From a virus: DNA of 25,067 bases. How positions within the stretch are numbered: position 1 is the first letter of the stretch; every line of letters begins with the position of its first letter. The stretch is from positions 348 to 25,414 of IMG/VR virus record IMGVR_UViG_3300021247_000125; one strand, given 5' to 3'. The notes beneath the pieces were generated by a model that saw nothing but the letters and a program-made list of their open reading frames with translations, did no database searches and was not told where the DNA came from. The position numbers were made by a program, and so were the translations under genes. Below, piece after piece: positions 11,632 to 24,710 of this stretch.

Positions 11632-11814
11632 TTATTTATGGGTCTTGCGACGATAATCAATGCCCTTAATGCGGCCTTTGTTGGCCGAGGCATAGAAGAC
11701 TTCCTTGGCTTTCTTAGGGCCATACTCAGCCACCATGTTTTTCATGATGGCTTTGCCTTTCTTAGTGAGGGGCATATTAGCAGGCTTTGCGCTTGCCGTA
11801 TTGAGCTTTGCCAT
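11632..11814 (-). CDS. Small basic conserved phage protein (60 aa)
   Basis: The 60-residue protein is strongly basic, with the core PLTKKGKAIMKNMVAEYGPK and then a YASANKGRIKGID segment. I recognise this as a small phage protein type (KKGK...YG.KKG..VFYAS.NKGKI.G) that is widespread in metagenomic podoviruses without a known role. Its first 38 bases overlap the end of the upstream 48-codon gene in another frame. The high Lys content suggests nucleic acid or membrane contact, but nothing proves it. The 38 bases between it and the next gene (11594-11631) hold nothing I can identify. Confidence 0.75.
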   Translation of the reverse strand: MAKLNTASAKPANMPLTKKGKAIMKNMVAEYGPKKAKEVFYASANKGRIKGIDYRRKTHK

Positions 11815-19611: not shown

Positions 19612-21708
19612 TTATTGTTGTTGCATACCCTGCGTGGTCATTTCACCCATCTGCGCGGGGGCTGTGCCTAGCTTGCCAATCTGAGCATTCTGCATCTGCT
19701 GTAAAGCAAATTGGTATTGATTGACATACTTCTCAAGGCGAGCGCGGAAGCTCTCGTCTTGCTGTAAGCGTTGAGCAACGTCAGGCTGCTGGGCATACTG
19801 CTGAACCACCTGCAAGGCGATTTGAGCGCCATTAGGACGTGCTCCCACCTCAATGCCAGCATAAATCTTGGAAAGGTCTTCCGTGACCAGCTTAACCACT
19901 TGCTGCTGGGCTTGCTCAGCGGGCTGCAAGATGGCATCAGCCATAACGGGGTCAATGGACGAAGCCATCGCCTCAAGGAGAGCGTCGGCGTTAATGCGGC
20001 CATTCTTGTCCAACTGGAGCAAGCTGACAAACTGCTGCATACGGGCTTCCTGTGTATCGGGATCGTTGTTCAGAATGTCAAAGCTAACCGTAATGTCGAA
20101 GTCTTCATCAGGATTGCCCTTGTTGAAGCGCATTGGGTCAGCAACGCCTGTAACGCGGAAGAACACTTCGTCTGGGCCGAAACGCTGATAGCACTTGAAT
20201 GCCATCTTCAGAACATCGCGGGCGTGGTTGAGGAACTTAGAAACAAAGAATTGCTGGCGAACCGATGTAAGCGGATTGGCGGGATTGAGGCCAACGAGAT
20301 CATCAGCCGCGAGAAGCATTGTCTTCTCCATCTCAACACTGCCGGGGTTGTATTGCGGCACGGGGCCAAACGAGAACTCACCAGCGCGGCGATAGGGAAC
20401 AAAGCGACCTGGTCCCCAATCCGCAGGAGGATTGCCCACGGGGTGCATGATGGGAGGCAGCGTAGCCATGCTGTTGCGGTCTGTACGGCTATCGCGCTCG
20501 GTCTTAACGCTGTCCTGATAGCCACGAAGCAGCTCAGGGAACGTCTGGATGTCATACATCCGCTTAGAGTCATTGCTCAAACGGGTTACAACAAATGGGT
20601 AGTCGTTGTACCCGTTCAGCAATTCAAATTTAGCGTAGGGTTGCACATCCGCAGCGCCCGTGAACTTGGGGTGCATGATGGTGCGATAGATGCCTTCGCT
20701 GCCGTCTTCTGGATCGATGAGGCGTTGGAAGGCGTACACAATCTCAATGAGTTCGTCGGCGTTGTATTGCTGGCGATACTTGGAAAGGCCCGTAGAGCGT
20801 GTACCATAGACGCTTTCCATGTTGTAGGTGTTCACCCCACGGAAGTGCGTAACGACATACTCAGCCCAGCTCTCGTCCCAGCCATCGGAGGCCACGCGAG
20901 ATAGCACTTCCTGAACAGTGAGGAACGTGCGATAGAAAACAAAGGGTGCGCGTTGAGGGTCTAAGCAATAGGATGGGAAGAATACATCTCCATCTGGAGC
21001 ACATGATTGAACATAGGGACGATCAACGCTAAGTCTGCTGATTGGGAGTTCGCTAACTCCCGTCTTACGAAGCTCATTCAGAGCTTTCTTGGCGCGGCTT
21101 TCAATTACGTCTGGATAGACGGTACGGAGCATAGCAATGACATCTTTGTCATTCTTGCCCTCGATGATGAGCTGAGCCAGCTCTGGACTCGTAGCCGCGA
21201 TTTGCTGCAAATCAATCTTCTGTAAAAACTTCTTCTCCATACGTTCCCAGCCAACGTATGTGACCATCAGGCCACGTTCTAACAGGTAATTACCTCCAAG
21301 CTCCATCTCCTCTTTGAAACGTGGGATGTAGGTGGACAGCATCCACTTGAGGAATGCACTGGTAACACGCGAACGGCCTTCATCGCTGTATTCAACAGGA
21401 TAGGCACGGATGTTGGCTTTTGCCAACGAGGAAGTAAAAATGGAAACGTAGGTGCTAATCTTCTCGTCAATGACACGGGCTTCCGTATCAGACGCGCCTT
21501 CCCACGGGAAAGCATCACCGCCATGCTTGCGAAGGTCGCTCGACTTTCCAGGCCAATAGCAACGGCGATAGTCGCTGCTATTCACACACTGATTGAAGTA
21601 GGTGCCGAGTTCTGTGGTTGTCCTGTCGTATGCAGCTTTTAGAGCAACGACGTTAGGGCCATCATTTTCTACAAAGGTCAGGGCGTGTTGCTGTGGAGTT
21701 TCTTGCAT
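19612..21708 (-). CDS. Portal (head-tail connector) protein (698 aa)
   Basis: The motif WPGKSSDLRKHGG followed by DAFPWEGASDTEARVID (residues 65-81) is typical of the portal proteins of P22-like and related short-tailed phages. Later parts fit a portal: a long helical wing with GWERMEKKFL, the LDPQRAPFVFYRTFLTVQEV segment, the stem and clip region (FPELLRGYQDSVKTERD) and a Gln-rich helical C terminus (QYQFALQQMQNAQ) resembling the barrel of P22-type portals. The dodecameric portal is the vertex through which DNA is packed and released. The size is near that of P22-type portals (about 725 aa). It lies downstream of the terminase genes and upstream of scaffold. Confidence 0.88.
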   Translation of the reverse strand: MQETPQQHALTFVENDGPNVVALKAAYDRTTTELGTYFNQCVNSSDYRRCYWPGKSSDLRKHGGDAFPWEGASDTEARVIDEKISTYVSIFTSSLAKANIRAYPVEYSDEGRSRVTSAFLKWMLSTYIPRFKEEMELGGNYLLERGLMVTYVGWERMEKKFLQKIDLQQIAATSPELAQLIIEGKNDKDVIAMLRTVYPDVIESRAKKALNELRKTGVSELPISRLSVDRPYVQSCAPDGDVFFPSYCLDPQRAPFVFYRTFLTVQEVLSRVASDGWDESWAEYVVTHFRGVNTYNMESVYGTRSTGLSKYRQQYNADELIEIVYAFQRLIDPEDGSEGIYRTIMHPKFTGAADVQPYAKFELLNGYNDYPFVVTRLSNDSKRMYDIQTFPELLRGYQDSVKTERDSRTDRNSMATLPPIMHPVGNPPADWGPGRFVPYRRAGEFSFGPVPQYNPGSVEMEKTMLLAADDLVGLNPANPLTSVRQQFFVSKFLNHARDVLKMAFKCYQRFGPDEVFFRVTGVADPMRFNKGNPDEDFDITVSFDILNNDPDTQEARMQQFVSLLQLDKNGRINADALLEAMASSIDPVMADAILQPAEQAQQQVVKLVTEDLSKIYAGIEVGARPNGAQIALQVVQQYAQQPDVAQRLQQDESFRARLEKYVNQYQFALQQMQNAQIGKLGTAPAQMGEMTTQGMQQQ

Positions 21709-21732
21709 AATTTAGCGTGGAGATTGCGTTCT

Positions 21733-22005
21733 TTATGTTACCATGTTACGGGTTTCATTTAACTCTTTGAGTTTATTACTCTTGGCATGGGATATGGCGT
21801 TCTTAATTATGCCACAGACGTATTCTTGTGAACGACCTATCTTATCTGACAACTCATCCGGAAACAATTCAGCCGTGTTTTTTTCGCGCACACGCTTCTC
21901 ATGCTCATGCCAAAGCAACCTATCGCTTTGCTCTAACAGCCACTTACGACTTAACGTAATATCAGGAACTAAGGAACTCGTGTCGGTAGGTTGTGCCTGT
22001 TTCAT
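21733..22005 (-). CDS. Small protein with a possible helix-turn-helix (90 aa)
   Basis: The ATG at 22005 lies inside the end of the upstream gene (44-base overlap, different frame); no later ATG gives a sensible product. The N terminus is polar; then SRKWLLEQSDRLLWHEHEKR forms a helix. LFPDELSDKIGRSQEYVCGI with the following helix KNAISHAKSNKLKEL looks like a helix-turn-helix, with DKIGRSQEYV as turn and recognition part. It might bind DNA near packaging or act as a regulator; there is no stronger evidence. The 24 bases to the portal gene hold no obvious signal. Confidence 0.55.
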   Translation of the reverse strand: MKQAQPTDTSSLVPDITLSRKWLLEQSDRLLWHEHEKRVREKNTAELFPDELSDKIGRSQEYVCGIIKNAISHAKSNKLKELNETRNMVT

Positions 22006-22231
22006 CTTTAATTACTTCTACGTTAATGACTTTGCCATCTAGCTTGCCTGTCAGCTTGCGCGGAATGGCAACGGCACATTTACCTTCCACGCCATCAACA
22101 GATGCGAACACCCATTGTGGATTGCGGGCTTGGCATTGAACGACGGCACGCAAGAACTTGGGCTTGTCTGGACTTTCCGCGTTCAGCTCCTCAATGGACT
22201 TGAGTTTAATCTTAACTGATTTGGCTTTCAT
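21962..22231 (-). CDS. Small basic beta-rich protein of unknown function (89 aa)
   Basis: The ATG overlaps the terminase stop by one base (TAATG). The product starts with KAKSVKIKLKSIEELNA, then alternates strands (FLRAVVQCQARNPQWVFASV, CAVAIPRKLTGKLDGKVINV) and ends GTTYRHEFLSS. The strand pattern suggests a small beta barrel, but I see no defining motif. Location between large terminase and portal is where phages often keep small packaging or head accessory genes. Function unknown. Confidence 0.65.
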   Translation of the reverse strand: MKAKSVKIKLKSIEELNAESPDKPKFLRAVVQCQARNPQWVFASVDGVEGKCAVAIPRKLTGKLDGKVINVEVIKDETGTTYRHEFLSS

Positions 22232-23832
22232 TAGTATCCTCCTCGTGAGCGAGTTTTGGGTTGGGTTGTTTCATCTACAAAACGAATGTTGTCTATGCAC
22301 GCATAGCGAATAACGTCCACAGGGTCTTTCCAGCTTTCATCGCTGCCGCCATCTCCCGTGTATTCCTGTAAGGCTGTAATGATGTTCTCGCACCTGTCGG
22401 AGACGTAGAAGTGCGGCCTGTTAAGGCTATCGAGCTTTAGCTTACGATTGTAAGCCATCTTTGTCTGAATGGCCTGAATGCCATCCTCAATGTCTAAGCC
22501 GGGCGCAGGAATAAACGTAAGGCCGTTGTCTGCTAAGTCCTCGATGATGCTACTCGCCCCGTTCTGAGCTTGGTACTTGGCTGCACCAAGACGAGGGTCA
22601 ATGAGACGTTCGGTGATTGTCTCTCCGTTGTCGCTCTCGCAGCGTGTAATGAGTTCAACGTAGTCTTTGATGCCATAGCCCAACCCTTTGCTGCCTTCGC
22701 CACCAATCCACTTGCCTCCATGCCACTTGGCCCAATCCCCAACATTAACATCGGGCCACTCACGATAGACGTAGTAGGTTTCACTAGCATCCACGCCAAT
22801 CCAGCACATAAACCAATTCTTGCGACCAGCAGGGTCAAGAATCATGTAGCGGGTTAAGTCCTTGGGAATGGACTCATGCTTAATGACGTTCACTTCACGC
22901 GAGAACATAGGGAACCGCGTAGAAGCACTCTTGGTTGGAATGCCATAGGCACGAGTAAGGATTTCTTCCTCGCTGCGTCCCTTCAGGTCTTGAGCAATAC
23001 GCTCATACCCACCAAACGGATTGTCCTTGGAGTGGAAGTAGATGATGCCGCTATTGCGATTGGCCGAGTGCTGAACAAACGGCACGGGCCTATCGTTTAA
23101 AAGTTCTGCAACTTTAGTTTCAACTGTTCGTGCTTTTTCAAGATAGTCTCGTACAACTTCCGTGTAACCGTCAATGGGAGTAAACGTAACAATAATTTTA
23201 GCGTTTCTTGTAGCAAGACGAAACCTAAGAGTAGCGAGGAGCTCAGGGCCAATAAGATACTCGTCACACCAAGCGCCGATGTTAAGCCAAACAGGTTCAC
23301 GGCTGCCAAGCTCTGCGCCTTCCAAGATGGTGTCGTTGTTGAGGAATTGGGCATAGGTTTTGAAGATGATGTGGCTCTTGGTGCCTGGAAGAATGAGACT
23401 GCTCTTAGAGAAGCCATTCTTGCGTGTGTAGCTAATGTTCTCTTCCGCACTCAGCGTTTTCTTACGCAGCTCTTCTGGCAACGCATCATAGATGGCGCTC
23501 TGCTGCTGGCGAATCGAAACATCCGCATTCTGGGCAAAGCACATAATGACGCTACCTGGATTCTCCATCGCAGCCCTAACAACAGCCGTAGCTGCCCACG
23601 TCGTCTTAGAAGAGCGATTGCCGCCACTTACAAGCAATTCATTAAATTCTTCAAGCAACTCCTCTGCCTTCTTCCAATGCGGCAGCTTAAATCCATAGCG
23701 ATAGGGGTCGCGCTGACTATTCTCAATGGCTTGATGGTAGATGTCGTAGAGATTGGCAAGCGTCTCAGGCTTCATCTTAGCCATCTCCTCATTCGTAGGA
23801 GGAGTGAGAATGGGGTGGGCTTTCCAGATCAT
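22231..23832 (-). CDS. terL: Terminase large subunit (533 aa)
   Basis: N-terminal ATPase: Walker A GGNRSSKT at residues 70-77; Walker B with catalytic Glu in VWLNIGAWCDE (Asp190, Glu191); coupling motif IVTFTP (214-219). C-terminal nuclease (RNase H fold): first Asp in YMILDPAGRKNW (Asp333), second in ERLIDPRLGA (Asp412), and a candidate third in the C-terminal KDPVDVIRY segment. This is the motor that pumps DNA into the procapsid and cuts the concatemer. The size is normal for the family. It follows the small subunit by 16 bases. No Shine-Dalgarno site precedes the ATG. All essential motifs seem intact. Confidence 0.95.
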   Translation of the reverse strand: MIWKAHPILTPPTNEEMAKMKPETLANLYDIYHQAIENSQRDPYRYGFKLPHWKKAEELLEEFNELLVSGGNRSSKTTWAATAVVRAAMENPGSVIMCFAQNADVSIRQQQSAIYDALPEELRKKTLSAEENISYTRKNGFSKSSLILPGTKSHIIFKTYAQFLNNDTILEGAELGSREPVWLNIGAWCDEYLIGPELLATLRFRLATRNAKIIVTFTPIDGYTEVVRDYLEKARTVETKVAELLNDRPVPFVQHSANRNSGIIYFHSKDNPFGGYERIAQDLKGRSEEEILTRAYGIPTKSASTRFPMFSREVNVIKHESIPKDLTRYMILDPAGRKNWFMCWIGVDASETYYVYREWPDVNVGDWAKWHGGKWIGGEGSKGLGYGIKDYVELITRCESDNGETITERLIDPRLGAAKYQAQNGASSIIEDLADNGLTFIPAPGLDIEDGIQAIQTKMAYNRKLKLDSLNRPHFYVSDRCENIITALQEYTGDGGSDESWKDPVDVIRYACIDNIRFVDETTQPKTRSRGGY

Positions 23833-23848: not shown

Positions 23849-24343
23849 TCATACCGTTATGGCTTCTTTCTGAAGCGCGGCTCTAGCTTCCTCAATGGCC
23901 TTCATAGCATCCTCTAGGCTTGGCTTCCCTGCTTTGTGCTCAATGACCATCTTGTTCTCTCCAAGAGCCTGCATACCCTTATCAATGGTTATGCCATAGG
24001 ACAGGGCTAGGTCTTTAATGCTTACCTTCGCCAAAGCATCTGGATTATCTGCCAGCATAGCCATCTTCTGCTTCATCAGAAGCCGCATTCCTTCCGCCAG
24101 CTCAAATCCATCAGCCGCAAGCTGCTTCTTCCGCACATCAATCGCCATTTCATGTCTGGCCTTAATGCGACTAATTTGGCTAAACGAAAACCCAGTAGCC
24201 TCCGCTATCTCTTCCCAATTACCCCCACTAGCCAGCAACTCCAAGCAAAGCATCCCCTTTTCAGGCTGTTGTGCCTCCAGAGCACGACTATTCGCTTCTA
24301 TTAAAGAAGTGAGGAGAATTGGGCTTACGTCTTGTTTAGACAT
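23849..24343 (-). CDS. terS: Terminase small subunit-like protein (164 aa)
   Basis: A helix-turn-helix occupies residues 41-64 (GNWEEIAEATGFSFSQISRI), followed by a helical region that could form the oligomerisation core (DVRKKQLAADGFELAEGMRL and IKDLALSYGITIDKGMQAL) and a charged C-terminal helix. Small terminase subunits bind the packaging site through such an N-terminal domain and present DNA to the large subunit, whose gene follows 16 bases later. It is the first gene of the leftward arm; its DNA target could lie in the repeat-rich region just upstream. Family membership is inferred from domain layout and adjacency. Confidence 0.8.
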   Translation of the reverse strand: MSKQDVSPILLTSLIEANSRALEAQQPEKGMLCLELLASGGNWEEIAEATGFSFSQISRIKARHEMAIDVRKKQLAADGFELAEGMRLLMKQKMAMLADNPDALAKVSIKDLALSYGITIDKGMQALGENKMVIEHKAGKPSLEDAMKAIEEARAALQKEAITV

Positions 24344-24468: not shown

Positions 24469-24479
24469 CTTGATGGCCC

Positions 24480-24563
24480 CCATTTGGGAATAATTTTTAA
24501 GAGGCTAGTTTACCTAGCAGGGTGGTCGCCATTTACGAATAATTTTTAAGGAGCCACTTTACC
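24480..24563. repeat. Two 35-bp direct repeats, 49-bp period
   Basis: Copies at 24480-24514 and 24529-24563 match at 29 of 35 positions, sharing CCATTT, then GAATAATTTTTAAG-like and TTTACC ends. The AT-rich core GAATAATTTTTAA is identical in both. Confidence 0.75.
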
Positions 24564-24574
24564 AATTTCAATCT

Positions 24575-24609
24575 CCCTACCCCCACCCCCTGATCGACCC
24601 CCTCCCCCC
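24575..24609 (-). other. Candidate G-quadruplex block (C-rich on + strand)
   Basis: On the leftward strand the G runs are G6, A, G5, TCGATCA, G5, T, G5, TA, G3. Four runs of five or more with loops of 1, 7 and 1 bases meet the usual G-quadruplex pattern; the + strand could form an i-motif. The two halves are nearly symmetrical around the 7-base loop. Confidence 0.65.
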
Positions 24610-24648
24610 TACTGCAAAGCAACTGCATTGCAATAGTAAGGCAGGCTT

Positions 24649-24710
24649 GGGACATGGAGTGTCCTACCCATCAGGCGGCATGGATACCTGGGACATGGAT
24701 TGTCTCACCC
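24649..24710. repeat. Two 21-bp repeats, each with internal dyad symmetry
   Basis: Copies at 24649-24669 and 24690-24710 share GGGACATGGA and an ACCC end (18 of 21 matches), starts 41 bases apart. Each has a GGACA...TGTCC-type dyad, exact in the first and with one mismatch in the second. This resembles tandem operator or iteron sites. Confidence 0.65.

Follow-up and report, generated by a model that had tools for sequence, protein, structure and literature searches.

The window, by which we mean the whole 25,067-nucleotide stretch analysed here (positions 348-25414 of a virus record of 25,414 bases), carries towards its right end, on the minus strand, a large terminase gene (terL; 22231..23832, 533 aa) recognised by its match to phrog_2, terminase large subunit (E 1.3e-20), and, in the position before it, a presumed small terminase gene (terS; 23849..24343, minus strand, 164 aa) with weak helix-turn-helix (HTH) matches at about residues 32-64. 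The structural model of the presumed TerS combines the HTH with long helices at moderate quality (pLDDT 71). The fold search returned no significant match for it, and identification through solved structures was set aside, the single match covering the HTH alone; the TerS assignment is presumptive and rests on gene order and the HTH. The window's TerL profile had no matches in the PDB, and blastn against named phages found no close DNA relatives of the window. Among named phages, matches to its TerL came only from the uncultivated phage C75C1 (OQ984151), the nearest GenBank relative with a TerL 44% identical, and from three Manatee Spring records. The search for RNA families in the window found nothing except one tRNA-Thr (anticodon TGT, 607-681), with an exonuclease gene on one side and the late gene block on the other. 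Between late genes there is also a 60-aa basic ORF (11632-11814), which by eye resembles small ORFs beside structural genes in other phages bearing the motif described below (L263:7655-7897).

Upstream of the presumed terS, the minus strand from 24609 to 24575 reads G6-A-G5-TCGATCA-G5-T-G5-TA-G3, confirming the five G runs (6, 5, 5, 5 and 3) and the loops of 1, 7, 1 and 2 bases that an earlier note, made from the letters of this DNA, had described. The setting given there was also correct: the block lies in gene-free DNA that extends from the presumed start of terS (24343) to the right end of the record, with repeats on both sides (24474-24514 and 24523-24563 on one, 24648-24669 and 24689-24710 on the other). 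Read along the late strand, here the minus strand, terS starts ~255 nt beyond the end of the conserved part of the block and is followed by terL, so that the site stands just left of the two terminase genes. The repeats left of the block are short palindromes of the GGGACAT...TGTCCC type. The same type recurs left of the G block in six other loci (L004, L008, L013, L029, L030 and L098), and quite different tandem repeats occupy this hypervariable left flank in other relatives.

This is the only motif of four G3 runs in the window, and it holds the window's G4Hunter maximum, 2.52. First-order simulation of the window, repeated 300 times, gave maxima that averaged 1.71 and reached 2.52 at most, and some four-run G3 motif arose in 45 of the 300. 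A G-quadruplex motif somewhere in 25 kb is therefore not rare, while one as strong as that of the window is approximately a 1-in-300 event.

Conservation of the G block and its spacing

Searches with TerL and TerS yielded at least ~155 loci. Upstream of terS these share a late-strand pattern of G6-9, one A, C or T, and G4-6, mostly followed by TC or TT, after which come an unconserved spacer, ATTGGT or a similar sequence, ~10 bases and a TTAAAAA tract. Among the matches listed, the strict block is present in 34 of the 39 non-redundant loci having at least 700 nt upstream, and its absence from the other five counts against the cos-site reading developed below; L151, outside the 34, has a G5AG8 variant. 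None of 126 control pieces contained the strict block. The distance to the A/T tract is kept as well: among the matches listed, the A-run starts 47-52 nt downstream of the block in 40 of 42 anchorable family members, and an A/T tract lies 42-51 nt past the block in 87 of 118 non-redundant loci from all sets, where shuffles give 5.7%, or ~7 of 118. Directly beside the block the DNA is repetitive and, even when close relatives are compared, hypervariable.

An exact-match scan for G7AG5TC contributed at least 120 stretches and with them phages whose TerL is 30-40% identical to that of the window or unrecognisable, most of them having the A/T tract equally far from the block. Since this set was chosen by the block, the shape of its block is no evidence, but its spacing is. 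The motif occurs once per genome in 16 of 16 motif-bearing records and in the record of the window. In bacterial genomes the pattern G7AG5TC..GCATC gave 10 matches in 257 Gb, mostly without an A/T tract as judged by eye, and we discarded these as probably due to chance. A sole one of the ten, in a Verrucomicrobia bacterium UBA6056 bin (L356, 569-619), has the full element (G block, ATGCATC and AAATTT) and is probably a phage contig or a prophage in the bin.

What is kept within the block is less than what first drew attention to it. Among the matches listed, four separate runs of G3 or more are found in only 24 of the 118 non-redundant loci. Conservation of the G runs in relatives, which the earlier note had proposed as a check, was seen for two of the five, G6-A-G5 (24598..24609, minus strand), which are kept in sequence and spacing; the other three, G5, G5 and G3 (24575..24590, minus strand), are not conserved as a set. 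Across these loci, evolution thus keeps the first two G runs and their distance to the A/T tract, not four runs. This bears on the possibility that the site works through a G-quadruplex, or through an i-motif on the other strand, for instance as a block to replication or transcription or as a folded packaging mark. The G4Hunter score is high and the block of the window does have four runs of G3 or more with short loops; sequences like it usually fold in potassium, and the block may well fold in vitro. Even so, considering which runs are retained, we regard a folded structure as the functional unit as very unlikely.

The surroundings of the block bear on two further readings. In one, the terminase operon would have its late promoter or a regulator here, the A/T tract serving as promoter and the G block as an upstream element. 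Its location upstream of late genes would suit such a role, as would one weak sigma-70-like match (24571-24542) and the tandem arrangement of half-sites, a second copy of the predicted cosN-A/T half, lacking a G block, being present at 24474..24514 (minus strand; 80% identity to 24523-24563, spacing 49), with similar tandem copies in some relatives. However, promoter-like matches are at chance level, the distance from the block to terS varies among relatives from 126 to 623 nt, and in the scan set the element sometimes stands beside other genes, as judged by eye: in L164 beside early genes, one of them for a DnaB-like protein, and in L215 beside a tail-type gene. We therefore find no support for the effect on late transcription that the earlier note had envisaged, and consider this role extremely improbable. 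The same variable distance and changing neighbours leave its suggestion of an origin mark unsupported. An origin or primer site consisting of a G run beside an A/T-rich stretch would agree with the place of both, as in C75C1, between early and late modules that are presumed to diverge, and would recall mitochondrial DNA, in which a conserved G-rich block makes RNA primers; but the element sits at the ends of linear genomes, next to known cohesive ends in cultured phages, as described in the following section, and an origin here seems to us hardly credible. On the early side of the element, an amidoligase gene adjoins a glutamine amidotransferase gene in the relative G003 (L345, 16433-18322) and a gamma-glutamyl cyclotransferase gene in C75C1 (20149-22830 of its record).

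Genome ends of phages bearing the element

Four contigs of the scan stop at ...TGCAT, 24-26 nt past the block. Two of them are linear records, G017 (43.7 kb) and G019 (44.3 kb), whose opposite ends begin CCTAAAAATTT and CCAAAAAAATG, with the terminase gene next in G017; joining the two ends of either record restores an internal element as in the other phages. The TerL of G017 is 80-84% identical to those of Streptomyces and Gordonia isolates. In the Streptomyces BI phages RavenPuff, Scap1 and ClubPenguin and the Gordonia phage Duffington, the right end reads ...G block...GCAT-CGCCGCCCT, or a variant of it, with the G run 36-37 nt from the end, and the left ends begin CCTATATTTT, CTATATTTTT and CCTAAAAATA. 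For the BI2 phages GoblinVoyage and Doxi13, 3' overhangs of 9 nt, 5'-CGCCGCCCT-3', have been reported (PMC11385150). Comparison of the contig ends with the isolate ends indicates that the contigs lack just the overhang, which is what end repair would cause. The G run of these isolates is G6-11 with or without one interruption, that of Duffington (G6-A-G5) being identical to the window's, and they combine it with a 9-nt overhang and a CCTAAAAA-like left end; they differ from the window in a spacer ~9 nt shorter and C-rich before GCAT. TerL searches starting from other motif-bearing phages found no further isolates with known ends.

Some contigs in the family of the window begin close to the block, their first bases being spread over the 60 nt that follow it, as sequencing failure at the G run would produce. 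We rejected these starts as proof of physical ends on account of the scatter and of artefactual G runs in some. It is common for metagenomic contigs to begin within the G block or immediately past it (L010, L025, L026, L042, L082, L130, L138 and L148), some with G runs of 14-32 that look like sequencing artefacts; assemblies seem to be broken by the cos G run.

The site might instead be a different kind of terminase site, namely a headful pac site or the start of a terminal repeat: many pac sites, too, lie left of terS and terL, and the known ends come from phages outside the window's family. Against this stand the cohesive 3' ends of the cultured element-bearing phages that were looked at, and we judge a site of this type quite unlikely.

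Seven 3'-overhang cos phages, HK97, phiC31, D3, D29, sk1, ArV2 and Sfi21, were chosen before their ends were viewed. In every one of them a G:C run lies at a distance of 35-44 bp from the right end: G9, which stops 42 nt short of it, in HK97, G5CG4 at 35 nt in phiC31, G4TG4CG3 at 40-44 nt in D3 and G6TAG6 at 35-37 nt in D29, and, with the Gs on the other strand, C8 at ~41 nt in sk1, C5GC4 at 38 nt in Sfi21 and several C runs, one of them at 38 nt, in ArV2. No G:C run was found near the right end of lambda, whose overhang is 5'. These genomes contain few such runs (0-8 clusters), and the odds of one falling within the last 60 nt are therefore ~0.2-1.3% per genome, a rough estimate because the sample is small and the pattern was settled only when several ends were already known. 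In total, eleven cultured phages, HK97 included, have a G:C run at about this distance from the end. The occurrence of the run on the opposite strand at the same place in sk1, Sfi21 and ArV2 further disfavours a G-quadruplex, and a role in which the run is read as duplex DNA fits better.

A predicted cos site and its relation to known systems

The observed conservation of the block sequence, its conserved spacing and the presence of the same element at the ends of isolate genomes make 24598-24609 most likely the left (right-genome-end) arm of a cos site, a reading in which we have considerable confidence. We infer the cut in the window's phage and its exact position by spacing alignment with the isolate ends, in which GCAT, CGCCGCCCT and CCTATATTTT follow one another; this places a predicted cosN with the 9-nt 3' overhang AAAGTGGCT at ~24552..24560 (minus strand, +/- ~3 nt). 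The right arm would then be the A/T tract CCTTAAAAATTATTCG (24536..24551, minus strand), which its conserved spacing and the analogy with HK97 make a possible TerS-binding side. The block-to-overhang spacing is longer in the window (~37 nt) than in the isolates (25-33 nt), which counts against the cos-site reading.

Along the late strand, the site would then consist of the G block (24609-24598), a spacer of ~37 bp, a terminase cut staggered at about 24561/24552 with a 3' overhang of ~9 nt, the A/T tract, terS and terL. The terminase might bind concatemeric DNA on the side of the A/T tract and cut at cosN, while some part of the cutting complex, the TerL nuclease, an HNH partner or TerS being candidates, would read the G:C run as duplex DNA three to four helical turns from the cut; the run would thereby fix the cutting register or, like lambda cosQ, bring packaging to an end. 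Our guess is that the reader is TerL or an HNH partner. The early region being outside the window, the check for HNH genes relied on the relative G003, which encodes two HNH-like proteins (one a weak HNH_5 match, one recognised by eye), neither adjoining the site. Pfam HNH and Endonuclease VII were dropped as a shared partner because of their patchy distribution.

Cos sites themselves are of a known kind. Our search of open full-text papers found no description of a G:C run at fixed distance in 3'-overhang cos sites, which does not by itself prove novelty. Locating the ends of a phage genome normally requires the sequencing of virion DNA; if cos is indeed marked by a G:C run and an A/T tract at fixed spacing, the ends of many uncultivated phages would become predictable from sequence.

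One of the closest known likenesses is C75C1, with G7AG5TC followed by CCGCCCCTTAAAAATTT upstream of the TerL homologue; it has only two of the G runs of the block and is a circular assembly. HK97, the model 3'-overhang cos system, resembles the window in having a late-strand G run left of the cut, A/T-rich DNA right of the cut, and terS and then terL downstream of cos, and differs in that its G9 is uninterrupted. HK97 TerS requires an A-tract and binds on the right side of the cut, where its site has been mapped at +15 to +29 (PMC11331095), and gp74 promotes cleavage (PMC9410871); the searched passages of these two structural papers do not mention the G9 run. The A/T tract conserved at fixed distance in the window and its relatives would be the counterpart of that A-tract, differing in that it starts ~4 nt after the predicted cut. 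The packaging signal proposed in the earlier note is thus well supported, in the form of a cos-like element found at genome ends, but its choice of the small terminase subunit as reader agrees less well with HK97, where the mapped TerS site lies across the cut from the G run (PMC11331095). In HK97 (TerS gp1, TerL gp2, HNH gp74) the HNH gene is at the right end, adjoining cos, and RavenPuff and ClubPenguin have one near the left end. The present comparison brings out a sequence element on the left side of cos in HK97.

A more distant parallel is offered by herpesviruses, which we compare from the textual description in PMC10763189. The duck plague virus signal pac1, whose A/T element is enclosed by G:C runs, lies 32 bp to one side of the cut, and pac2, beginning with an A-rich element, is 32 bp to the other side (PMC10763189). 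In the phage element a G:C run, ~25-37 bp away from the overhang compared with 32 bp for pac1, and an A/T tract stand on opposite sides of the cut in a similar way. The two differ in that a single base takes the place of the A/T element between the G:C runs in the phage block, and in that the phage A/T tract is next to the cut rather than ~32 bp from it. The parallel may reflect convergence or ancestry. Perhaps 3'-overhang cos sites in general include, as a part so far unnamed, a duplex G:C run that lies about three turns away from the cut, can be read on either strand and is the counterpart of the herpesvirus pac1 runs, one end-recognition rule having survived from a common ancestor of tailed phages and herpesviruses; we think this rather doubtful, but the comparison makes a cut-site rule shared by phage and herpesvirus terminases testable.
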